DNA from: Candidatus Methylacidiphilales bacterium
GTDB lineage: Bacteria > Verrucomicrobiota > Verrucomicrobiia > Methylacidiphilales > CAZTYG01
Reading direction: 5' to 3'
Length of the DNA: 35,886 bases
Assembly: GCA_033875315.1 (NCBI GenBank)
Contig: JANRJG010000039.1
Location: forward strand, 72,614 to 108,499
Shown here: piece by piece, positions 17,554 to 33,336 of the stretch
How positions within the stretch are numbered: the stretch's first letter is position 1
Layout of the letters: the number at the start of each line of letters is the position of its first letter
Notes under the pieces: model-generated
Seen by the model: only the letters and a program-made list of their open reading frames with translations
Database searches by the model: none
What the model was told of the DNA's origin: nothing
Made by a program: the position numbers and the translations under genes

Positions 17554-19491
17554 ATGCCCAATGCCTCATCCATCCTGGTGGTGATCCCCGCCCTCAACGA
17601 GGCCGGAGCGATTGCCGGGGTGTTGGGCCGGTTGGCGGAGCAGGGGCTGCGTCGGGTGCGGGTGGTCGACAATGGGAGCACGGATGGGACGGATGGCACG
17701 GCGCTTCGGGCGGGTGCGGAAGTGGTCCATGAACCGTCGCGGGGCTATGGGCGGGCGTGTTGGACCGGTCTGCAAAATCTGCCGGATGGGGTGGAGTGGA
17801 TTCTTTTCTGCGATGCCGACGGCAGTGATGCGTTGGAGGATCTGCCGCGCTTGTTGCGGGCGGCGGATGAGGGGGCGGTTTTTGTTTGCGGGGACCGGAC
17901 GTCGACGGTGGAGGGCCGGGCGGTCATGACCCCGGTGCAGCGATTCGGAAATGCCCTCGCCACCTTCCTGATCCGTCTGGCCTGGGGAGCATCGTTCCGC
18001 GATCTGGGCCCCCTGCGCCTGGTTCGGCGTGATGCGCTGGAACGGATTGCGATGGAAGATCGCGGGTTCGGTTGGACGATTGAGATGCAGATCCGTGCGG
18101 CGGAACTGGGGTTGCGTTGGGCGGAGGTGCCGGTGGGCTACCACCGGAGGCGGGCGGGAAAATCGAAGATTTCCGGGAACCTGCGCGGAATGGTGGGGGC
18201 CGGGAGTGTCATCCTGGGCACCTGGGGCAAGTTTGTCCTGCGCAAGCGGACGGTGCAGCGGGCGTTGGCCTGGGGTTCGACCCTCCTTCTGCTGGCCGGG
18301 GCGGCGGCGGTGGCGTCGTCGGGGGATTTCGCCCGTTACGGGGTCCGTCCCCTGTTCTGGGCCGGTGCGTTGGCGCTGGTGTTGGGTTATGTCATTTCGT
18401 GGGCGTGGCGCGATGTGGGGAGGCGCGGTTTTCTTTTCCTGTCCCTCGGTCTGAGGGTGGTGATGTGGTTCATGTTCCCCGGGGACGATGTCTGGCGTTA
18501 TCTTTGGGAAGGCCGGGTGCAGAATGCGGGGTTCAATCCCTACGTCCTGGCGCCGGCAGACCCGGCGCTGGCCGAGCTGCGGGATGACGCGTGGGCATTG
18601 ATGCCGCACCGCGAAATCACGGCGATCTACCCGCCGCTGACCCAGGCCTTGATGCGCGTGGCAGCTTTGGGCGCGGGTTGGTGGTGGTTGAAGCTGATGG
18701 TGGCGGCGGCGGATTTCGGGGTGGCCGTGGTGCTGGCCCGGAGATTTGGACCGGCGCGGGCGACGCTCTACGCATGGTGTCCGTTGGTGTTGCTGGCCTT
18801 CGCGGGCGGGGGGCATTTCGACGCCTGGATGCTGTTGGCGATGGTGGTGGGGTGGCTGGCCTGGGACTCCGGGCGGATACGACTGGCGGTTCTGGCGTTG
18901 GGCGCGGCCTGTGGCATCAAGTATGTGGCGGCCCCCCTGCTGGCCTGGGTGTTGTGGAGGCAGTGGCGGGACCAAGGCACGCGCCGGGTGCTAGAACTTG
19001 CGGTATGGGCAATGTTGCCGACGTTGCTGGCCGTAATCTTGCTGCCGCCGCCCTGGGACCCGAGACTTTGGTTCCCCAAGGATTTTGCGGTGTATGCGCG
19101 GAGCGCGGATTTTCTTCCGCGGATCTTCAGCTGGATCTGGGAGCCTTCCCTGAGGATGAACCAGATCCACCTCATCCCCGCCGCACTGCTTGGGATGTGG
19201 GTGGTGTGGCGTTCCCCGACCCTGGCTGTGGCGGCGGAACGCTGGTTCATCGGGTTGCTCGTCCTTTCGCCGTTGGTGCATGCGTGGTATTTCACCTGGG
19301 GAATTCCCTTCGCCGTGGCAAGCGGCAGCCTGGGTTGGCGCCTGGCCGGAGTGAGTGCGTTGATTTACTTCCAACTGCAACAGTTGGCCTTCGTGCAGAA
19401 GGAGTGGTTGTTGGGCGTACCGCTTTGGTTGTTGCTGTGGGGGCCACCCCTGCTCGGATGGCTGTGGGACCAACGGAGGAAGGAACGATGA
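17554..19491 (+). CDS. Fusion of GT2 glycosyltransferase and polytopic membrane glycosyltransferase
   Basis: This 645-residue protein has two parts. Residues 5-230 are a family 2 glycosyltransferase of the dolichyl-phosphate-mannose-synthase type: VVIPALNEAGAIAGVL, VVDNGSTDGT (38-47) and the metal-binding DADGSD (87-92). Residues 235-645 hold about ten hydrophobic segments. The loop 310-330 begins GDDVWRYLWEGRV and ends FNPY, and YPPLTQ follows at 359-364. This pattern is typical of GT-C-like membrane mannosyltransferases that use lipid-linked sugars. A single chain could therefore make a lipid-phosphate sugar and then transfer it; that is inference. The stop overlaps the next glycosyltransferase start by four bases. 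The related name TIGR04283 is used for GT2 proteins in arsenosugar loci, and arsS and arsM lie next door. Confidence 0.85.
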   Translation: MPNASSILVVIPALNEAGAIAGVLGRLAEQGLRRVRVVDNGSTDGTDGTALRAGAEVVHEPSRGYGRACWTGLQNLPDGVEWILFCDADGSDALEDLPRLLRAADEGAVFVCGDRTSTVEGRAVMTPVQRFGNALATFLIRLAWGASFRDLGPLRLVRRDALERIAMEDRGFGWTIEMQIRAAELGLRWAEVPVGYHRRRAGKSKISGNLRGMVGAGSVILGTWGKFVLRKRTVQRALAWGSTLLLLAGAAAVASSGDFARYGVRPLFWAGALALVLGYVISWAWRDVGRRGFLFLSLGLRVVMWFMFPGDDVWRYLWEGRVQNAGFNPYVLAPADPALAELRDDAWALMPHREITAIYPPLTQALMRVAALGAGWWWLKLMVAAADFGVAVVLARRFGPARATLYAWCPLVLLAFAGGGHFDAWMLLAMVVGWLAWDSGRIRLAVLALGAACGIKYVAAPLLAWVLWRQWRDQGTRRVLELAVWAMLPTLLAVILLPPPWDPRLWFPKDFAVYARSADFLPRIFSWIWEPSLRMNQIHLIPAALLGMWVVWRSPTLAVAAERWFIGLLVLSPLVHAWYFTWGIPFAVASGSLGWRLAGVSALIYFQLQQLAFVQKEWLLGVPLWLLLWGPPLLGWLWDQRRKER

Positions 19492-20147
19492 AACCTGGTG
19501 CGCAGGGACGGCGGACAACGGCCGCACTGATGCTCAAGGCGCCGGTGGCGGGCCGGGTGAAAACTCGACTGGCGGCGCAGATCGGCGCGGAGGAAGCCTG
19601 CCTCGCTTACCGTTCACTGGCGTCCTGGCAATGCCGCGTGGTGCCGGTGGAATGGGATTTGGTGGTGCATCATGATCCCCCCGATGCGGGGCCGGTGATG
19701 CGGGCCTGGCTGGGGGACCGGCCGGTTTACCGTCCACAGGTGTCCGGTGATCTGGGCGATCGTTTGTTGGGGGCTTTGGAGTCGCATGATTTTTCCCTGG
19801 GCGCACTGGTTTTTCTTGGCGGGGATTGTCCGTATCTGGATGCCGGGATTTTGCGGCAGGCGGAGGCGTGCCTGAACGGAGGGGCGGAGGTGGTCTTGGG
19901 GCCGGCGCGCGACGGAGGCTATGTCCTTCTGGGTCTGGGTGCGGCGCACCGGGGTTTGTTTGAGCGGATCGAATGGAGCACGCCGCGCGTGCTGGAGCAA
20001 ACCTGCGCACGGGCGAAGGCGGCTGGCTTGTCCGTGCATTTGCTGGAGGAGTCTGAAGACGTGGATGATGCCGCTTCGTGGGACCGGGCAAGGTCGTCCG
20101 GCTGGAACGGCGGGGCCGGATCGTGTGCGGATGGCGCCCGGGGGTGA
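19488..20147 (+). CDS. TIGR04282-type (DUF2064) arsenosugar-associated glycosyltransferase
   Basis: The 219-residue product starts at ATG 19488, just after a GGAGGAAGG ribosome-binding site, and overlaps the preceding stop (ATGA). The nucleotidyl/glycosyltransferase pattern is clear: ALMLKAPVAGRVKTRLA at the N-terminus, GDLGDRLLGAL, then VFLGGDCPYLD with the metal-binding Asp, and GPARDGGYVLLGL. These are the DUF2064/TIGR04282 signatures. The family name links it to arsenosugar biosynthesis by gene neighbourhood, and that neighbourhood is present here. It ends seven bases before the convergent arsS stop. The sugar donor and acceptor are not established. Confidence 0.9.
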   Translation: MKPGAQGRRTTAALMLKAPVAGRVKTRLAAQIGAEEACLAYRSLASWQCRVVPVEWDLVVHHDPPDAGPVMRAWLGDRPVYRPQVSGDLGDRLLGALESHDFSLGALVFLGGDCPYLDAGILRQAEACLNGGAEVVLGPARDGGYVLLGLGAAHRGLFERIEWSTPRVLEQTCARAKAAGLSVHLLEESEDVDDAASWDRARSSGWNGGAGSCADGARG

Positions 20148-20154
20148 GGCGATA

Positions 20155-21123
20155 TCAGGCGGTTGTGAGCGCGCCACCGCAGGACGATCCACAGCCGGCG
20201 GTGCAACCGAAACAATGTTCGCCCAAAGCCACCGGGCGGTCCTCGAGAGTGGCCGGGTCCAGGTCCCAGAGAAAGAGTGGCCGGGGATTGGTCCACTGCA
20301 TGCCGAGTTGCTGGTTGAAATCGCAGTCATAGACTTCGCCGCGCCAGCCAATGTTGAGGGTATTGCGGCACATCAGGCCGGGGATAGTGGCGGGGTTGAA
20401 GGCCTGGCGGAGGGTGTCCATGTAGGCGACGAACTTACCGTTGTGCCGGAGCCAGGTGGCGAAACGCGCGATGGGCATGTTGGTGATGGTGTAAAGGCGG
20501 TGGAAATCGATTCCGAAGTGTTGCTTGAGCTCGCGCTTGTAATCGGCTTCCAGTTCTTCCTGCAGACCTGGAAGAGAGGCGCCGATGGGGTTGTAGACGA
20601 GGTGGAGGGGGAGTTGTTCGGTTCTGCCGTAGCCGAGGCTGTTGAGTTGTTTCAGGGCGGTGATACTGGCCTCGAAGACGCCGTCCCCACGTTGGGCGTT
20701 GACGTTTTCCGGTGAGTAACACGGCATGGAGGCGACGATCTCAACTTGGTGTTCCTTGAGGAAAGCGGCCATGTCTTCATAACCGGGTTCGAGGAGGATG
20801 GTGAGGTTGCAGCGATCGATCACCCGTCGTCCCTGGGCACTGAGGCTGGAGACCAGCCAACGGAAATCGGGGATCATTTCCGGGGCGCCTCCGGTGAGGT
20901 CGACGGTGGTGATGTCGGTGGGGGCGAGCCAATCCAGGATGCGCTCAAGGGTGGGCCGGGTGATGATTTCCTTGCGGGCCGGGCCGGCGTTGACGTGGCA
21001 GTGAGAACAGGTGAGGTTGCAAAGCTTGCCGGTGTTGATCTGGAGGATTTCTGTGCGCGCACGGCGGAGCGCCACGTTCTGGTGGCGAAGCGTATCGGCA
21101 AAAGACAGGGTGGGCGGTTGCAT
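20155..21123 (-). CDS. arsS: Arsenosugar biosynthesis radical SAM protein ArsS
   Basis: ArsS is assigned to formation of the carbon-arsenic bond between methylated arsenic and a SAM-derived deoxyadenosyl unit. The 322-residue protein has the radical SAM cluster motif C35-x3-C39-x2-C42 within LCNLTCSHCHVNAGP, with DLTGGAPEM (75-83) as the SAM-contacting GGxP-type motif. A second Cys cluster near the C-terminus (C304, C307, C311, C315, in CFGCTAGCGSSC) is the SPASM-like/auxiliary region of the family. Some ArsS proteins carry selenocysteine; this one has cysteines throughout and no internal TGA. It is last in the minus-strand run, 45 bases after the aquaglyceroporin. Confidence 0.92.
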   Translation of the reverse strand: MQPPTLSFADTLRHQNVALRRARTEILQINTGKLCNLTCSHCHVNAGPARKEIITRPTLERILDWLAPTDITTVDLTGGAPEMIPDFRWLVSSLSAQGRRVIDRCNLTILLEPGYEDMAAFLKEHQVEIVASMPCYSPENVNAQRGDGVFEASITALKQLNSLGYGRTEQLPLHLVYNPIGASLPGLQEELEADYKRELKQHFGIDFHRLYTITNMPIARFATWLRHNGKFVAYMDTLRQAFNPATIPGLMCRNTLNIGWRGEVYDCDFNQQLGMQWTNPRPLFLWDLDPATLEDRPVALGEHCFGCTAGCGSSCGGALTTA

Positions 21124-21168: not shown

Positions 21169-21996
21169 TCAAACCTGGGTCGGATGGGCGGAAGTGTAGG
21201 CGGGTTTAAGGAATGCGGTGTAGATTCTCCCACCGATGAGACCTCCGAATATGGGGGCGAGGATGTACACAGTCAGCCATCCCCAGCCATTGGTGGTGAA
21301 AGGTATGCTGCCCCAGCCCGCTAGCGATGAAAACAGCCGGGGGCCGAGGTCGCGCGCCGGATTGAAACACGCCATGGTCAGGGGACCGAGCAGGGAGATG
21401 AGCAGGGTGACCGTCAGACCGATGGTCAGGGCGGTGAGGATCTGGGGGCGTCCGGAATTGCGGGCATCGGTGCAGGCGAAGATGACCAGCAGCAGGATGG
21501 CGGTGCCGATGACTTCGGCGCCGATGGCGGCGGTGTGGGTCATGAGCTGCCGGGACTCAGTAGTGAGGGGTTGTCCGCCCGGGTTGGGGAAGTATTCCCC
21601 GAAGATCATGGCGGTGGCTTCGCTGCCGGGGGCGCCGCGCTCGATGCCGTGCCCCGCCTCATAGGTGCGGAGGGCATCACCGAAGATGAGGAAGAGGACG
21701 GCTGCAGCCAGGAATGCAGCCACGAGTTGGGTGGCGATGTAGGGCAGGACCCTGGAGCGGGGGAAGCCGCCAAAGACGGTCATGGCGATGGTGACGGCGG
21801 GATTGAGATGGGCCCCGCTGAGGGAGCCGGTCAGGTAAATGGCGGTGGCGATGCCAAGGCCCCAAACGATGGCGACCTGGAACACGCCGACCTGGGCCCC
21901 GGTGAGGACGGCAGCGCAGACGCTGCCGCACCCGAAGAAAACGAGGAGGAAGGTGCCAAGCGACTCACCGATGAACCATGAGGGCAGATTTTTCAT
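21169..21996 (-). CDS. MIP-family aquaglyceroporin, probable arsenite channel (AqpS-like)
   Basis: This 275-residue integral membrane channel has the two half-helix signatures of the major intrinsic protein family: NPA at 65-67 (GAHLNPAVTIA) and NPA at 212-214 (FNPARDLGPR). The Arg-Asp after the second NPA is the glycerol-facilitator form rather than the water-only form. Six hydrophobic segments are visible. Aquaglyceroporins conduct As(OH)3, and AqpS-type channels sit in several ars operons; here the gene lies between arsM and arsS. Start ATG 21996 gives MKNLPSWFIG. A GTG at 22005 would add three residues. Direction of arsenite flow follows the gradient and cannot be read from sequence. Confidence 0.9.
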   Translation of the reverse strand: MKNLPSWFIGESLGTFLLVFFGCGSVCAAVLTGAQVGVFQVAIVWGLGIATAIYLTGSLSGAHLNPAVTIAMTVFGGFPRSRVLPYIATQLVAAFLAAAVLFLIFGDALRTYEAGHGIERGAPGSEATAMIFGEYFPNPGGQPLTTESRQLMTHTAAIGAEVIGTAILLLVIFACTDARNSGRPQILTALTIGLTVTLLISLLGPLTMACFNPARDLGPRLFSSLAGWGSIPFTTNGWGWLTVYILAPIFGGLIGGRIYTAFLKPAYTSAHPTQV

Positions 21997-22056
21997 GCGC
22001 GTCACTTTATGAGGATTGGTGTGGGGGTGGAACCGTATTCCATTGGGCTTAAGCCT

Positions 22057-23202
22057 TCAGCAGCAACCGCCCCCATCGCAGCACTGGGAGGCTTCAGTGG
22101 TGGCGCTGTAGTCCTGGCCTTTTGTTTCCTTGGGATGGCGGCGGCTGGTGCGCGAGCAATCGAAAGGGCGGGCATCGGCGAGGGGGATGTCGACGAGCGG
22201 ATCAAGGAAGGTGAAGCAGTCCCCGTAGGGGGTTTTCTTGTACAAGTTGTAGGTTTTGTCGCAAACGGCGTAGCGGACACCGCGCTCCATGCGATGGCCG
22301 TCGTCGTCGAGGACTTCCTTGAAGGGCCCCTTGTAGATGACGGCCTGGTTGCGCTCGAAGCAGGGTCCTTGTTTGCCCTTGAAGGCCTCGATGGTCATGG
22401 AGCGGAACTCAATGCCCTCCACCGTGCGCCAGGGGGTGGTGTCGAGTTTGAGGATGCGGACGCCGTAGAATCCGGCTGCGGTGAAGGCGTTGAGGAAACC
22501 TTCCTCGGTCAGCGCACCCGACAGGCAACCGGACCAAAGTTCGGGGTCCTGTTGGAGTTGCTCGGGCACTTCCTCGTCGCTGACGATGTCGGAAATGACC
22601 GCACGGCCCCCGATTTTCAGCACGCGGAAGATTTCCGCGAACAGATCGCGTTTGGAGCGCGAGTCCACCAGGTTGAGGACGCAGTTGGAAACAACGACAT
22701 CGACGGATTCCGAGGCGACGAGCGGGCGGGTGGCGCGAAGTTCGGCGGCGAGGGCGTCGGCGGCCAGGAAGGCGTCGGCACTGGTGATGGGATTTTTCTT
22801 CAATTCGGAGTCCAGCGCCTCGAGGTCGAGGGCCAGGTCCTGGATGCGGCCCTTGCGGAACTCGACGTTGCCGTAACCGATGTTGCGGGCCACGACAGGG
22901 GCATTGCGGCGGGCGACCTCGAGCATGTCGTCGGTCATGTCGATGCCGATGACACGCCCCTCGGGGCCGACGACCTGGGAGGCGATGAAACAGATTTTCC
23001 CGGTTCCGGAGCCGAGGTCGAGGACGGTTTCACCGCGGCGGAGGTGGCGGCTGGGGTCGCCGCAACCGTAATCGCGCTCGATGACTTCCTGGGGGATGGC
23101 AGTGAGGTATTGTTTGTCGTAATCGACCGGGCAGCACAGGGCGGCTTCGGCCTCGCGTGCTCCGGCCGCGTAGCGTTGCTTGACGGCTGTTTCGATGTTC
23201 AT
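22057..23202 (-). CDS. arsM: Arsenite S-adenosylmethyltransferase
   Basis: ArsM methylates As(III) stepwise using SAM. The 381-residue protein has SAM motif I, LDLGSGTGK, at 61-69 and GIDMTDDML at 86-94. The three As(III)-binding cysteines typical of the family are C47 (DYGCGDP), C174 (VSNCVLNL) and C226 (WSGCLSGAL). The Cys-rich tail CCDGGGCC (374-381) is common in bacterial ArsM and may bind As(III) or deliver it. Length fits the long bacterial form. The gene is 47 bases downstream of the DUF547 gene and 60 bases upstream of the aquaglyceroporin. No arsR regulator is visible in the window. Confidence 0.95.
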   Translation of the reverse strand: MNIETAVKQRYAAGAREAEAALCCPVDYDKQYLTAIPQEVIERDYGCGDPSRHLRRGETVLDLGSGTGKICFIASQVVGPEGRVIGIDMTDDMLEVARRNAPVVARNIGYGNVEFRKGRIQDLALDLEALDSELKKNPITSADAFLAADALAAELRATRPLVASESVDVVVSNCVLNLVDSRSKRDLFAEIFRVLKIGGRAVISDIVSDEEVPEQLQQDPELWSGCLSGALTEEGFLNAFTAAGFYGVRILKLDTTPWRTVEGIEFRSMTIEAFKGKQGPCFERNQAVIYKGPFKEVLDDDGHRMERGVRYAVCDKTYNLYKKTPYGDCFTFLDPLVDIPLADARPFDCSRTSRRHPKETKGQDYSATTEASQCCDGGGCC

Positions 23203-23249: not shown

Positions 23250-23969
23250 CTAGGGTGATTCGTTGAGGGACCAATCGTAGGGTTGGAATCCGATGTGGGT
23301 GTCGGTGGGGAGGGGTTTGGGGAGGTGTTGGTTGAGGAAGGTGCGGACGCCCGCCTGGCCTCCGAAATCTGCGGCGTACCAATTGAAAATCTCTGAAAAG
23401 AGCCATGGGTTGTCTTTTCCATCGGGACGGGCACCAAGGGGGGAGGCAAGGAAGCGACGGGCGGCATCGTTGAGCTGGGCCTCGATCCGGGCGGGGTCGT
23501 AGGGTTCGGCGCGCAGGGGCGGGCAGCTCCGGCTGGCGCAATTGATGGCGAAATGAATCCTGGGATCGCGGAAGGTGGCGAGGAGGTGTTTCTTTTCCAG
23601 GTCGTTCAGGCTGACGGGCTGGCCGGCGATTTGGAAACGCGCTTGTGAAAAGAAACCGAAATTGGGGGCGATGTCGCGGACACCGGAGATGGGGTAGGCG
23701 GCGAGGATGCCGGAAAGCACATGGATGTTGTAGGCGTTGATGAGGAAGGCCTTGGCGGTGGCGGGATCGCCGGGGACGGGGAGGGTGGCCATGGTCCGGG
23801 CGAGGTTGGCCAGGGCCTGGGTGTCCTCGGTGGATTGTTTCCAGGCGCGGTAGCGCACGCCGTCCGGTTTGGCGTATCGGGAGAGGAGGGCTTCATAAGT
23901 GCCGGCAGGGGCCGTTGCTGAGGCGGCGGAGACTAGAATGAGGAGGAGGGCGAAGACTTTGGGTGCCAT
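23250..23969 (-). CDS. Exported DUF547 domain protein
   Basis: From ATG 23969 the product has 239 residues and begins with a signal peptide (MAPKVFALLLILVSAASATA). The mature part carries DUF547 signatures: LSRYAKPDGVRYRAWK near residue 30, AFLINAYNIHVLSGIL near 95, HFAINCASRSCPPL with two cysteines, and a C-terminal FNWYAADFGG. The biochemical role of DUF547 is unknown; the conserved Cys, His and Asn residues suggest an enzyme. The frame is open upstream into the previous gene's end but without the signal peptide logic. It sits between the redox fusion gene (46 bases) and arsM (47 bases). DUF547 genes are frequent neighbours of arsenosugar genes, so a role there is inferred. Confidence 0.88.
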   Translation of the reverse strand: MAPKVFALLLILVSAASATAPAGTYEALLSRYAKPDGVRYRAWKQSTEDTQALANLARTMATLPVPGDPATAKAFLINAYNIHVLSGILAAYPISGVRDIAPNFGFFSQARFQIAGQPVSLNDLEKKHLLATFRDPRIHFAINCASRSCPPLRAEPYDPARIEAQLNDAARRFLASPLGARPDGKDNPWLFSEIFNWYAADFGGQAGVRTFLNQHLPKPLPTDTHIGFQPYDWSLNESP

Positions 23970-24015: not shown

Positions 24016-26358
24016 TCAGTGGGAGGCCTCGCGCATGCGGACAGGGGAAGCGGCGAGGCGGTCGAGGATGGGTTGTTTTTCGCTGTCAAGGTGTCCGAAA
24101 GCAAGGACGCCGGTCGGGCATTGTTGCACGCAGGCCGAGCAACGGACGCATTCCGGATCCTGCATGGGCAGGCCCTTGTTGGCAAAGTTCATGATGTCGA
24201 TGCCCTGGTGGCAGACCGAGGTGCAGACGTTGCAGGAGATGCACTTGGACTTTTCAGCGAAGATCCGGAAGCGGGAGAAACGGGCATAAATATGCATGAG
24301 GGCGGCGAGGGGACAGGCGAAGCGGCACCAAGCGCGGCCGGAATACCAAAAGTAGAAGCCATAGCCGAGGATGCCGGCGAGTAAGAGGTCGACGAACCAG
24401 GCATAATTGATGACAGGGAGGTGGTGGAAGCCCTGCTCGAAAGCGTAGGCGGCCCAGGAGACGCCAGCCCAGCCGAGGATGCGGAGGATCATGAGGAGCG
24501 CGGCGAAGGCGAGGATGGCCTGGCCGAGCATGTTGAGGCGGTTCCAAGCGGGACCGTGGGGCATCTTGTGGCGGTGTTGGTCGCCCAGGGTTTCGGCGAG
24601 GGCCCCGCAGGAACAGATCCACCCACAATACGCACCCTTGCCCCAGCGCCAGACGAGGAGCGGAATGAGGACGAAGGTTTGGAGGAAGCCCACGATGAGC
24701 CAGCCGGTGAGGGGTTGTTGTGTGAACCAGTTGTAGACGAAGAGGGGCCAGGCGAGCACCAGTCCGTAGGCTCGCCAGTATTCGCGGCCATGGCCGTAGG
24801 AAACGGCCGGGAAAAACTCGTCGGCGACGGCGCGGGCCCACCCGTGGTCGAAGAGTCCCTGGTGGCCGAGGAAGGGCAGGATGATTTCCGGGAGAAGGAA
24901 GAGGGGCAGGCACTGCATGGCGGTGAGGGAAAGGGTCTGGGCGGTGACGTAGGGGGTCTTGCGACGGCGGATGCGCCGGATGCCGAAAGTGATGATGATG
25001 AGGGAATAGGCAAGGGTGTAGTAGAAAGAAGGACCGGAGGCGGAGATCTTGAGCGTGCCGAGGAGGGTGGAGGGATCGGCGGCGGAGGGCAGAAGGGACT
25101 GGATCCAGGCCCAAAGCATGGCGGGATTCCAATTGAGCCAGGGGGGCAGCTTGCCAATGAAGGGGATTTCCTTTCCGCCTTTCCAGTGATAGAGCCAGGT
25201 GCAGAAGAGGAGGAAGGCGCCCATGGCGGCGAAATCCAATGGTTTCCACTCTCCGCGGATGGGGATGCCGGAGCGGCGGAAGAATTCCAAGGGGGCCTCG
25301 CGTCCGATCATGGCGAAGACGTGGTCGTTGGGGATGGTTTCGGTGGATCCGTCGGGGTGGCGGAGGCTGGCGTTTTCCGGGCCGACGGCGGCGATTTCGG
25401 TACCGAGGGCGAGGCGGAGGGACCCCGGGGCGGCATCGCCGCGCATGGAGGACGAGGCGGCAGTGGTGATGCGTTCGGAGGTGGGACGTTCGACGGCGGC
25501 CTCGGCCATGGGATCGCGGGAGAGGCGCTGGATCTGGGCGAGGTTGTCCGGTTTGGGGCGGGAGAATTCCTTCTTGCGGTAAGACAGGGTGGTGTGGGCA
25601 CCGCAGGCGGTGAGGGCGATGGCGGCTTCGAGGGCGGAGTCGCCCCCGCCGACGACGAGCACTTGTTTTCCGGCGTAGTCGCGGGGGTCGTGGAGGCGGT
25701 TGGTGACCTTGGCGAGGTCTTCACCCGGGCAGCCGAGTTTGCGGAAGTTGCCGCTTCGTCCGATGGCGACGATGGCGCGGCGGGCGGAGATGGTTTTGCC
25801 TCCGGCGAGGTGAAGTTCGATGGATTGGGGGCGGGCGGAGAGGCATTCGACGCGTTCGGTGTGCGGGGTGATGCCGGCCTGAAGGCGTTGGGCTTCCATT
25901 TCGGCGAGGAGGGATTCTTTGTCGGCGGCGGTGATTTGGAAGGAGCCGGCCGGGGTCATGCCGGTGGGGTAGGTGTAGATGGGTTTGCCCTTGGGGAAAT
26001 TGGCGATGGTGAAGAAGGGACCGGAGGGTTCGAAGAGCACGAAGTCGAGTCCGCGCGCGCGGGCCTCGATGGCGGCGGCGATGCCGGCCACCCCACCGCC
26101 GATGATGGCCAGATCATGGGTGGCGGGTTCCTTCGAGGCTCCAGAGGTGGCGAGTTCGGTGGCAACGGCCTGGGCGGCTTTGGCCCCGCCGTCGATGGCG
26201 AATTTGAGGAGGGGGATGCCGGTGAGATCGCCGACGATGCGGACACCGGGGACGGCACAGGTACCGTCCTCGTGGACGAGGGGGAGTTTTTCCACAACGC
26301 CGGCGGGCCAGCGGGTGTGCAACCAGTGCGTGTAGCGTGTGAGGAAGGCGGTCAGCAT
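24016..26358 (-). CDS. Flavoprotein/NAD(P)H oxidoreductase fused to membrane 4Fe-4S ferredoxin domain
   Basis: This 780-residue fusion has an N-terminal pyridine-nucleotide oxidoreductase domain (about 30-360) with the FAD dinucleotide motif IIGGGVAGIAAA (85-96) and the NAD(P) motif VVGGGDSALEAA (235-246). No thioredoxin-reductase-type CxxC lies between them. Several transmembrane segments follow (about 370-650), then the Cys motif CGWICSCGA. Next is WCRFACPL, and two ferredoxin clusters, CISCNVCTSVC and CVRCSACVQQC, follow near the C-terminus. This resembles the NapH/NosR/CcoG type of membrane iron-sulfur protein. Electrons would pass from NAD(P)H through FAD to iron-sulfur clusters at the membrane; the acceptor is unknown. 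Residues 34-66 resemble the usual C-terminal FAD motif of this fold, implying circular permutation. It heads the arsenic gene run. Confidence 0.85.
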   Translation of the reverse strand: MLTAFLTRYTHWLHTRWPAGVVEKLPLVHEDGTCAVPGVRIVGDLTGIPLLKFAIDGGAKAAQAVATELATSGASKEPATHDLAIIGGGVAGIAAAIEARARGLDFVLFEPSGPFFTIANFPKGKPIYTYPTGMTPAGSFQITAADKESLLAEMEAQRLQAGITPHTERVECLSARPQSIELHLAGGKTISARRAIVAIGRSGNFRKLGCPGEDLAKVTNRLHDPRDYAGKQVLVVGGGDSALEAAIALTACGAHTTLSYRKKEFSRPKPDNLAQIQRLSRDPMAEAAVERPTSERITTAASSSMRGDAAPGSLRLALGTEIAAVGPENASLRHPDGSTETIPNDHVFAMIGREAPLEFFRRSGIPIRGEWKPLDFAAMGAFLLFCTWLYHWKGGKEIPFIGKLPPWLNWNPAMLWAWIQSLLPSAADPSTLLGTLKISASGPSFYYTLAYSLIIITFGIRRIRRRKTPYVTAQTLSLTAMQCLPLFLLPEIILPFLGHQGLFDHGWARAVADEFFPAVSYGHGREYWRAYGLVLAWPLFVYNWFTQQPLTGWLIVGFLQTFVLIPLLVWRWGKGAYCGWICSCGALAETLGDQHRHKMPHGPAWNRLNMLGQAILAFAALLMILRILGWAGVSWAAYAFEQGFHHLPVINYAWFVDLLLAGILGYGFYFWYSGRAWCRFACPLAALMHIYARFSRFRIFAEKSKCISCNVCTSVCHQGIDIMNFANKGLPMQDPECVRCSACVQQCPTGVLAFGHLDSEKQPILDRLAASPVRMREASH

Positions 26359-31037: not shown

Positions 31038-32387
31038 TTACTTGTCGCCCTTGAAGTCGCGGTAGTTGCCGCCGAAGCGCTTGGTGATTTCGCGCAGATA
31101 ATCACGGTCTTTATCCGAGACCGAATAGCCGACGACGTGGATGGTGGGCTTCTCCTGGCCCCGGGATTTGTAGAGCTCGTTGTAAAGATTGGACAGATAA
31201 TCCAGGAGTTCCTCCCGGGTAAAGGTGTTCGCACCACGATAGGCCCCAGGGGGGGGATTGTCGTATTCTGGTCTCGTCGGCAGGCCCTTGTAGCCTTCGA
31301 TCCACCACACCCATTCCTTTTCCCTTCCCTCAACGGCGGCATTCATCCTGGCCATTTCCTGCCGCATTTCTGCGATGATGGCCTTGTTCTTCTCGTAGTA
31401 ATCGCGGCGCATGATTTCCCAAGCGGCGATTTCCTTGGCGTTCTTCTCCCGCAACTTGGCCCACTCGGCGTTTTCCTTCTCAGTGAACGGACGTTGCACG
31501 TTGGGGGTTCCGTCGGTGAGGATGAAGATGGTGTCGCAGCCGGATTCGAAAGCACCGGTCAGGGCCAGGTCCATGCGGGTTTGTCCAGAGAAGCCGGCCA
31601 TGCGCTGGCTGCGGTAGTTCAGGAGGATGTTGCCGAATTTGTTCGTCATGTAGGGAGCGATCCAGGTGGCGAATTCTGCTTTGTAGCGGTCCGATCCGGG
31701 CACAGCGCGCGGCTTGAAGGCGTCGACGTTGGAATCGAAGATGAAGACATTGAATTCCGACGAACCGTCCAGGCCTTGGATCATGCGGATGAGTTCCTGT
31801 TTGAGTTTGTCGTAACCGGCCTTGCCGCCGCGGCTTGCCAAAACCATGCTGCCAGAGGCATCGAGCAGGAAGGCGACCCGGCGGGCCTCGGCCTTGATGC
31901 CGAAGAATTGGACCACGGACTGTTTGCCGGCGGGGTTGGAAACGTCGGAAACCGCCGCCGGCTTCATTTCGATGTTTTGCGAGAGGCTGTTGATACTGGT
32001 CACACTGGCTGCGGGCGAGATGTTGAATGCCGAGGGGCTGGGGGCGGAAGAGATGATCAGGTCATTGGCCAGGGAGTCGTTGGTGGGGGTCGGGGTTTCC
32101 GCGGAGCTGGGCGCGAGGTCGTTGGTCGGCTGGGGGGTGTCCGGCATTTCCGTGATTTCTTCGGGCGGGGCCATCATGACCGTCTCATCGGCACCGGGGT
32201 CAACCAGGCCATCGGCCGAATTGAAGACCGTCTTGGGCACCACGCCTTCGAAAATGACATAGCCGCCCACGAGCAGGAGGGCGGCGCTGTGCAAGATGAT
32301 GGAAAGGGCGAAGGCGCCGATGGAGGCTTTGGCCGTGCCTTCATTGGACGAGGATTCGCGGGCGGGCGTTTGTATTTCTTCCGACAT
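31038..32387 (-). CDS. Membrane-anchored von Willebrand A domain protein
   Basis: From ATG 32387 the product has 449 residues. A short cytoplasmic N-terminus precedes one transmembrane segment (about 24-46), then a Pro/Thr/Ser-rich linker (about 65-150), giving a TonB-like topology with the rest in the periplasm. The vWA domain begins at VAFLLDASGSM (171-181) with the metal site D176-x-S178-x-S180, T270 and the D292 of ILTDGTP. Within the domain, residues 299-412 form a large charged insertion rich in Glu, Lys, Arg and Trp that is likely coiled coil. The domain then resumes at IHVVGYSVSDKDRDYLREI. Function unknown. The frame is open further upstream (to 32693), but that part overlaps panC and is not family-like. 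It is divergent from panC. Confidence 0.82.
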   Translation of the reverse strand: MSEEIQTPARESSSNEGTAKASIGAFALSIILHSAALLLVGGYVIFEGVVPKTVFNSADGLVDPGADETVMMAPPEEITEMPDTPQPTNDLAPSSAETPTPTNDSLANDLIISSAPSPSAFNISPAASVTSINSLSQNIEMKPAAVSDVSNPAGKQSVVQFFGIKAEARRVAFLLDASGSMVLASRGGKAGYDKLKQELIRMIQGLDGSSEFNVFIFDSNVDAFKPRAVPGSDRYKAEFATWIAPYMTNKFGNILLNYRSQRMAGFSGQTRMDLALTGAFESGCDTIFILTDGTPNVQRPFTEKENAEWAKLREKNAKEIAAWEIMRRDYYEKNKAIIAEMRQEMARMNAAVEGREKEWVWWIEGYKGLPTRPEYDNPPPGAYRGANTFTREELLDYLSNLYNELYKSRGQEKPTIHVVGYSVSDKDRDYLREITKRFGGNYRDFKGDK

Positions 32388-32508
32388 CACCAAAGTATTG
32401 CCAAAAAGACGATGCTGGGCAAGTGCAACGCGATGGTGGGTGGCAGGAATGGGCAACTGGAGGGGGGAGGGACAAATTGGGATGGTCAGCCGCGAAAGGG
32501 CCGTTACG

Positions 32509-33336
32509 ATGGCCGTTTTTATACGCCCCGTGAAAATCGTCACATCGCCCCGAATGATGCAGCGCCTGGCCCTGGATTGGCGTGCCAGCGGGGAAAAGTT
32601 GGTGCTGGTGCCCACCATGGGGGCGCTCCACGAAGGGCATCTGAGTCTGGTCCGGCGGGCTCGCAACTTGGGGGACCGGGTGGTGGTGAGCATCTACGTG
32701 AATCCCCGCCAATTCGGACCCCGGGAAGATTTTTCGCGTTATCCCCGTCCCGCTGCTCGGGATCGGGCCCTTTGCCGGACATCCGGGGTGGATGTGGTGT
32801 TTTCCCCCCGGGATTTGTATCTTCCGGACGATTCGACCGTGGTCGCAGAAAAAGCTTTGTCGGCGGGACGATGCGGGCGTTCGCGCCCGGGGCATTTCGA
32901 CGGGGTGACCACGGTGGTGGCCAAGCTTTTTCTCATCGTTCAACCGGACCTCGCCGTCTTCGGACAGAAAGACGCCCAGCAATGCGAGGTGATTGAAAGG
33001 ATGGTGAGGGATCTTTGGTTTCCGATCCGGGTGGTGCGGGTCCCCACCCACCGGGATGGACGGGGATTGGCGATGAGTTCCCGCAATGCGTACCTTTCCC
33101 GGGAAGCGTACGAACAGGCGCTGGCCTTTCCCCGACTGCTCCGCCAAGCGGCCCGTGGCGCCCTTTCCGCGGGGGCGGCTGAGCGGGCCGGGGTCCGGTT
33201 GTTGTCGCGATCGCCGGGACTGCGGGTGGATTATGTGGAGTGGTCCGGGGGCAGGCTTTGTGCGGCGGTCTTCTGTGGCGGGACCCGGCTGATCGACAAT
33301 GTTTCCTGTCCGATCAAGGCCCGTGGAGCATCATGA
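32509..33336 (+). CDS. panC: Pantothenate synthetase
   Basis: PanC joins pantoate and beta-alanine in an ATP-dependent reaction to make pantothenate. The protein shows the nucleotidyltransferase signature VPTMGALHEGHLSLV with the HxGH ATP motif (41-44), VNPRQFGPREDFSRYPR, HFDGVTTVVAKLF, VFGQKDAQQ and the KMSKS-like AMSSRNAYLS. The frame is open further upstream. I chose ATG 32509 (275 residues), which has AAAGGG nearby. A GTG at 32530 would give the more canonical start MKIVTSPRMM. The stop overlaps the amidase start by ATGA. It heads a panC-amidase-murI run. Confidence 0.93.
   Translation: MAVFIRPVKIVTSPRMMQRLALDWRASGEKLVLVPTMGALHEGHLSLVRRARNLGDRVVVSIYVNPRQFGPREDFSRYPRPAARDRALCRTSGVDVVFSPRDLYLPDDSTVVAEKALSAGRCGRSRPGHFDGVTTVVAKLFLIVQPDLAVFGQKDAQQCEVIERMVRDLWFPIRVVRVPTHRDGRGLAMSSRNAYLSREAYEQALAFPRLLRQAARGALSAGAAERAGVRLLSRSPGLRVDYVEWSGGRLCAAVFCGGTRLIDNVSCPIKARGAS

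Follow-up and report, generated by a model that had tools for sequence, protein, structure and literature searches.

A membrane ferredoxin protein with a very probably permuted TrxR/YpdA-type flavin domain, encoded at the head of a bacterial arsenic gene cluster

Low-Mr thioredoxin reductases (TrxR; TIGR01292) and the bacillithiol disulfide reductases YpdA/Bdr (TIGR04018; PDB 7a76, 7a7b) share a two-Rossmann flavin fold, with a GxGxxG and a NAD(P) motif in TrxR. In the canonical order of both, a VPGxxxAGD strand followed by a helix comes last, and this unit closes the FAD site. TrxR also carries a CxxC pair and an HRRxxxR motif, while YpdA is a soluble enzyme with an active Cys14 and no Fe-S centre. 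The activity of YpdA depends on this cysteine, in the sequence GGGPC14G (PMC6591457). The TrxR-like ferredoxin/flavodoxin-NADP reductases (PDB 6gar, 3ab1), soluble and of canonical order, lead electrons from NAD(P)H and FAD to an Fe-S carrier, a separate ferredoxin, without a CxxC. NapH/MauN and NosR-type proteins (TIGR02163, Fer4_5) combine membrane helices, two membrane-edge cysteine motifs and a C-terminal two-cluster ferredoxin. The genes of arsenosugar synthesis form a further described set (ArsM, ArsS of TIGR04167, and TIGR04282/04283).

We analysed a window of 35,886 nucleotides, the whole stretch of DNA considered here, from a Candidatus Methylacidiphilales bacterium. It encodes P0001, which has the flavin fold of the reductases joined to the membrane and ferredoxin features of NapH, a protein without a flavin domain of this kind, and which shares its neighbourhood and its occurrence across genomes with the arsenosugar set (Table 1). 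The P0001 reading frame begins with ATG and is stop-free inside, and against its own genome, which encodes a separate normal TrxR, the protein gave a self match of 1831.8 bits. Pfam placed Pyr_redox_3 (2.2e-23) and Pyr_redox_2 (4.2e-21) on residues 82-369 and a ferredoxin on 699-748; the membrane part matched Fer4_5. The closest curated profile was that of YpdA (TIGR04018), at 108.5 bits with a cut-off of 339.9; TIGR01292 gave 53.7 bits (cut-off 343.45), and a conserved Cys pair is absent. YpdA/Bdr enzymes were also the closest solved proteins, ahead of thioredoxin reductases and TrxR-like ferredoxin/flavodoxin-NADP reductases, and the best match in both sequence and fold; the fold search bears chiefly on the flavin domain and barely covers the membrane part. 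Where YpdA has its active-site Cys in GGGPCG, P0001 reads GGGVAG, with A at the position of Cys14 and A or S in its relatives. Against NapH/MauN (TIGR02163) we obtained E 2.9e-15 and 56.5 bits over residues 565-754, below the cut-off of 213.05; P0001 has both membrane-edge cysteine motifs and the C-terminal 2x[4Fe-4S] domain of the NapH type, but its motif 1 reads CGWICSCG and not CX3CP.

The first-pass annotation, made from the sequence alone, had numbered the residues correctly, with CAVPGVRIVGDLTGIPL starting at C34, GGGVAG at 87-92 and GGGDSA at 237-242. It had also reported, rightly, that the chain past AMIGREAPLEFF (349-360) goes straight into membrane helices. At VFAMIGREAPLEFFRRSG (residues 347-364) a canonical chain would continue to VPGxxxxGD, whereas P0001 enters the membrane from residue ~370 on.

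Table 1. Features of P0001 and of its neighbourhood; positions are those of the window
Feature	Position	Strand	Basis or remark
Terminator-like hairpin, upstream of P0001	26510..26535	(-)	11-pair stem + T6
P0001	24016..26358	(-)	780 aa: TrxR/YpdA-like flavin domain (very probably permuted), membrane domain, two-cluster ferredoxin
Residues 9-28, conserved lead-in YxxWLHxxWPAGxVEKLP	26275..26334	(-)	specific to P0001 family
Residues 29-66 TCAVPGVRIVGDLTG, FAD-closing segment (VPGxxxxGD strand + helix), C-terminus to N-terminus	26161..26274	(-)	hhalign, pooled test, model
Residues 82-115, FAD Rossmann motif DLAIIGGGVAG	26014..26115	(-)	Pfam Pyr_redox_3/Pyr_redox_2; hhalign E 1e-27
Residues 231-270, NAD(P) Rossmann motif VVGGGDSALE...SYRKKEFSR	25549..25668	(-)	Pyr_redox
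Residues 310-370, NAD(P) domain end and return into FAD domain (VFAMIGREAPLEFFRRSG)	25249..25431	(-)	TIGR04018 match ends
Residues 373-672, six predicted transmembrane helices, NapH-like	24343..25242	(-)	hydropathy, model helices, TIGR02163, Fer4_5
Residues 578-584, membrane-edge cysteine motif 1 CGWICSC	24607..24627	(-)	C578, C582, C584 100% conserved
Residues 678-683, membrane-edge cysteine motif 2 CRFACP	24310..24327	(-)	C678, C682 100% conserved
Residues 704-755, two [4Fe-4S] ferredoxin motifs	24094..24249	(-)	eight cysteines >=99% conserved; Fer4_10
DUF547 protein, second gene of unit	23250..23969	(-)	PF04784 E 1.7e-24; start codon by eye
ArsM-like arsenite methyltransferase	22057..23202	(-)	NF040538 334 bits (cut-off 500); PRK11873 204 bits (cut-off 263); below both cut-offs
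MIP-family channel, AqpS-like by position	21169..22005	(-)	TIGR00861 187 bits, above cut-off
ArsS, arsenosugar biosynthesis radical SAM protein	20155..21123	(-)	TIGR04167 441.7 bits, cut-off 300
TIGR04282 'arsenosugar biosynthesis glycosyltransferase'	19485..20147	(+)	155.9 bits, cut-off 134; converges with arsS
GT2 + membrane glycosyltransferase	17554..19491	(+)	PF00535

The central claim of that annotation, that the segment closing the FAD site comes ahead of the FAD motif, was borne out by profile comparisons and by the order kept in the relatives. With hhalign, residues 29-61 aligned to positions 268-302 of the 318 in TrxR, in its C-terminal segment, and residues 26-80, as a family segment profile, to positions 269-302 of a profile built from 28 canonical TrxR sequences (E 1.3e-4); residues 82-363 aligned to TrxR positions 10-255 (E 1e-27). 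The pieces are complementary and in swapped order, which, together with a shuffle test, argues for more than a chance resemblance. When 104 permuted segments were pooled and compared with the TrxR profile, the match had a probability of 94%, an E of 1.3e-7 and a score of 46.2, against a mean of 11.6 (sd 2.3, maximum 18.2) in 60 column-shuffle controls. In L207 and L208, which carry the permuted module in another architecture, a plain TrxR HMM matched with its C-terminal portion ahead of its N-terminal one. Of the 316 positions of TIGR04018, matches reached no further than 264-265 in three family members and 189 in P0001, and a true YpdA was matched over 1-315 in the same search. The VPGxxxxGD segment is thus present in P0001 (29-66), and the canonical order, with the closing segment last, is not the one observed: no second such segment was found past residue 345, and the pattern GD[LVIMAT]T[GN], searched over 87 homologues, matched only ahead of the Rossmann motif. 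Among the best 60 PDB matches listed, none spans both the permuted segment and the core.

Of the searches with permuted and unpermuted profiles, another check put forward at first pass, the profile-profile form was the informative one. Rearranging the single sequence in silico made the Pfam and NCBIfam matches no longer than before, and a shuffled control behaved alike. Detection of the moved segment by single-sequence HMMs was weak, with few members passing a loose criterion.

Structure prediction gave confident models with a strand and a helix at the place expected for the moved segment. We ran AlphaFold without templates on an alignment of 79 family sequences. The domain model (residues 1-375; mean pLDDT 90.4) has a strand at 39-41 and a helix at 51-72, with averages of 96 over residues 31-40, 82 over 41-50 and 95-98 over 51-70, and the full-length model reached a mean pLDDT of 88.8 and a pTM of 0.84. 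VIA-align paired residues 78-370 of the domain model with YpdA 1-267 (Z 20.5, 258 residues, rmsd 6.2) and gave Z 22.0 and rmsd 3.7 on the full model. Structural aligners of this kind are sequential and do not make a permutation directly visible; they left ~55 residues at the end of YpdA and 77 at the start of the model unpaired, and the overlay on TrxR/YpdA folds thus stops where a permutation predicts. In residues 1-78 the only bridge residues outside strand 39-41 were single ones (26, 32), and since the three-residue strand needs a partner, this partner is most likely in the core. Residues 34-66 would, on this reading, be in direct contact with FAD. The full-model alignments extend to residues ~710-720, which pair with the stretch that directly follows the GD loop in YpdA/TrxR; this might place the first ferredoxin cluster near the flavin, a point on which we do not rely.

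In the 79-row alignment G38, G43, D44, G47, P49, L50 and L51 are invariant in the moved segment, as are Y9, W12, L13, H14, P18, G20, E23 and P26 in the lead-in. The permuted order, whose presence in homologues was a check put forward at first pass, is kept in every family member examined, including L153 and L160, which are 29-31% identical. A scan of GTDB contigs recovered at least 586 relatives, the best 80 of which include records titled Verrucomicrobia, Planctomycetota/Phycisphaerae, Acidobacteria, Myxococcales, Latescibacterota, Gemmatimonadetes and others; the sole annotated record seen, a Pseudoalteromonas homologue (WP_007378779.1), is called 'NAD(P)-binding domain-containing protein'. 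A second architecture, of about 420-510 aa, has an N-terminal anchor and a ferredoxin ahead of the permuted flavin domain (L181, L184, L186, L189, L190, L191, L207, L208), and a third, of about 750-820 aa, adds a C-terminal membrane domain to this arrangement (L179, L182, L185, L188). The permuted module is a widespread domain with two further ferredoxin architectures, which the first-pass annotation had not seen. A tree built on the core places canonical YpdA and the permuted forms on opposite sides of one branch (96/65); TrxR forms a separate long branch, and YpdA is the closest canonical neighbour of the permuted forms. This topology, whose deep forks are weak, is compatible with a single origin of the module. 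The P0001-type enzyme is apparently an undescribed, widespread bacterial membrane protein, and a natural circular permutation of the TrxR-like flavoprotein fold was not found in the open-access papers, PDB sequences and family libraries that we searched.

The permutation, its conservation and the inventory of cofactor motifs come directly out of these computations, and we consider it very likely that the flavin domain of P0001 is a circularly permuted TrxR/YpdA-type fold, in support of the first-pass reading. The poor single-sequence HMM matches to the segment, and the failure of the rearranged sequence to lengthen any Pfam or NCBIfam match, could point to an N-terminus that is an unrelated lead-in with a chance VPGxxxxGD, and to a truncated or degenerate flavin domain. 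Such a reading is very unlikely given that the pooled profile (E 1.3e-7) found the exact place expected, against shuffles, that G43 and D44 are invariant, that the strand and helix have a high pLDDT, and that the order is the same in three architectures. TrxR-type enzymes are dimers, and in a domain swap the closing segment could instead pack on the other subunit, against its FAD and with the same contacts. The confident monomer models, in which only a short linker (residues 73-80) precedes the Rossmann strand, make this unlikely, and the order of the chain would remain permuted anyway.

With the permuted fold in place, the cofactor motifs outline a path for electrons. The flavin domain has no strictly conserved cysteine, the best being position 252 (51%), and the 13 conserved cysteines all lie in the membrane/ferredoxin half (578, 582, 584, 678, 682 and eight in the ferredoxin). 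This distribution argues against a disulfide reductase and for an exit of electrons via Fe-S centres, which most likely oxidise the flavin in place of a disulfide; P0001 most likely works like the TrxR-like ferredoxin/flavodoxin-NADP reductases. Where TrxR has HRRxxxR, the family has the invariant residues R261 and R267, which suggest NADPH as the donor. The six helices show a positive-inside pattern that is predicted to leave the flavin, the cysteine motifs and the ferredoxin all cytoplasmic. P0001 would thus be an NAD(P)H dehydrogenase anchored in the membrane, with a permuted flavin domain that runs directly into a NapH-like membrane domain, followed by a cytosolic two-cluster ferredoxin. 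It is likely, judging from its motifs, that P0001 transfers NAD(P)H electrons via FAD to [4Fe-4S] clusters at the membrane. Beyond the clusters the electrons would reach the membrane-edge cysteine sites and then a quinone or a partner protein, a direction of flow and an acceptor that we infer from the sequence. The displacement of one beta-alpha unit would wire the flavin domain directly into a membrane ferredoxin.

The gene lies at the head of an arsenic operon, as first proposed. A strong, intrinsic-terminator-like hairpin (26535-26510) parts it from the upstream genes, which include those for ribosomal proteins L28 and S18, and on the same strand P0001 is followed by DUF547, ArsM-like, MIP channel and ArsS genes with gaps of about 45-51 bp. 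Elsewhere in the window (31038-32693) we noted a 551-aa protein, von Willebrand-like by eye, for which neither Pfam nor NCBIfam gave a match at the thresholds applied.

Across genomes, the co-occurrence with arsS that the first-pass annotation had proposed to check appeared as enrichment in two phyla, frequently with linkage. ArsS was present in 9 of 13 carriers of the family gene and 9 of 276 other genomes among 289 Verrucomicrobiota (Fisher p 9e-10; by genus 7/10 vs 6/143, p 5e-7), and in 24 of 32 carriers and 58 of 214 others among 246 genomes of the Planctomycetota, the phylum of L050 (p 2.7e-7), p-values that are all weakened by shared ancestry. The two genes lie within 6 kb of each other in 9 of the 24 Planctomycetota carriers with ArsS, and 33 of 50 carriers from many phyla have ArsS. 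The gene orders around the family gene and ArsS are distinct in L028, L154, L155 and L025, and this independence argues for a real link. About a quarter to a third of carriers (4/13, 8/32 and 17/50) are without ArsS. In Pseudoalteromonas sp. Bsw20308 (L209, NZ_CP013139.1 684470-710782) the family gene sits in a glycosyltransferase cluster on a 906-kb replicon, with five glycosyltransferase-type genes including TIGR04282/TIGR04283-like ones, and no ArsS above cut-off was found on that replicon. Arsenic is consequently not the sole setting of the family, which is not confined to arsenic clusters, a point that had escaped the first-pass annotation. Among the neighbours in 87 loci, which contain at least one duplicate (L025 and L048 are the same contig), we counted DUF547 in 17, ArsS in 9, ArsM in 7 and an MTAP-like phosphorylase in 4.

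What P0001 does with its electrons can be read in more than one way. A membrane-anchored disulfide reductase acting on bacillithiol or thioredoxin would agree with YpdA being the closest solved relative, and is nevertheless highly improbable for a flavin domain that lacks a strictly conserved cysteine and in which the Cys14 of YpdA is replaced. The main role of the family may also lie in a glycosyltransferase/DUF547 pathway, for a glycolipid or glycan, with arsenosugar synthesis as one special case. The higher count of DUF547 than of ArsS in the 87 loci, its presence beside members, divergent ones included, without ArsS nearby (L153, L160, L162) and the glycosyltransferase setting in Pseudoalteromonas all favour this role, which we regard as a tentative possibility; against it stands the strong co-occurrence with ArsS across the genomes of two phyla, unlinked cases included. 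Overall, a permuted membrane NAD(P)H dehydrogenase is probably the best explanation. In arsenosugar-making bacteria, P0001 would supply reductant to ArsS or to the reduction of methylated As(V) intermediates; this role is the least certain step, and we consider it evenly balanced. P0001 was not found among the described arsenosugar components in the open-access literature searched, and it is a concrete candidate for a redox step of bacterial arsenosugar synthesis. The broadest reading, possible but somewhat doubtful, is that the permuted TrxR/YpdA module is a new electron-transfer domain, compatible with a single origin, that several phyla share and that occurs in at least three membrane architectures linked to ferredoxin, and that P0001 is a dedicated NAD(P)H-driven arsenosugar electron donor in bacteria without a photosynthetic reductant.

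Some further observations concern the neighbours and the hosts. DUF547 genes (23250-23969 in the window; also at L153, L160, L162 and L034) adjoin family genes more often than ArsS genes do, and DUF547 may be a true functional partner of the family. Pseudoalteromonas sp. Bsw20308 is a possible cultured test organism. In arsS clusters the MTAP-like phosphorylase gene directly follows the family gene (L025:9778-10611, also L027 and L048), and its product could cleave the adenosyl product of ArsS.
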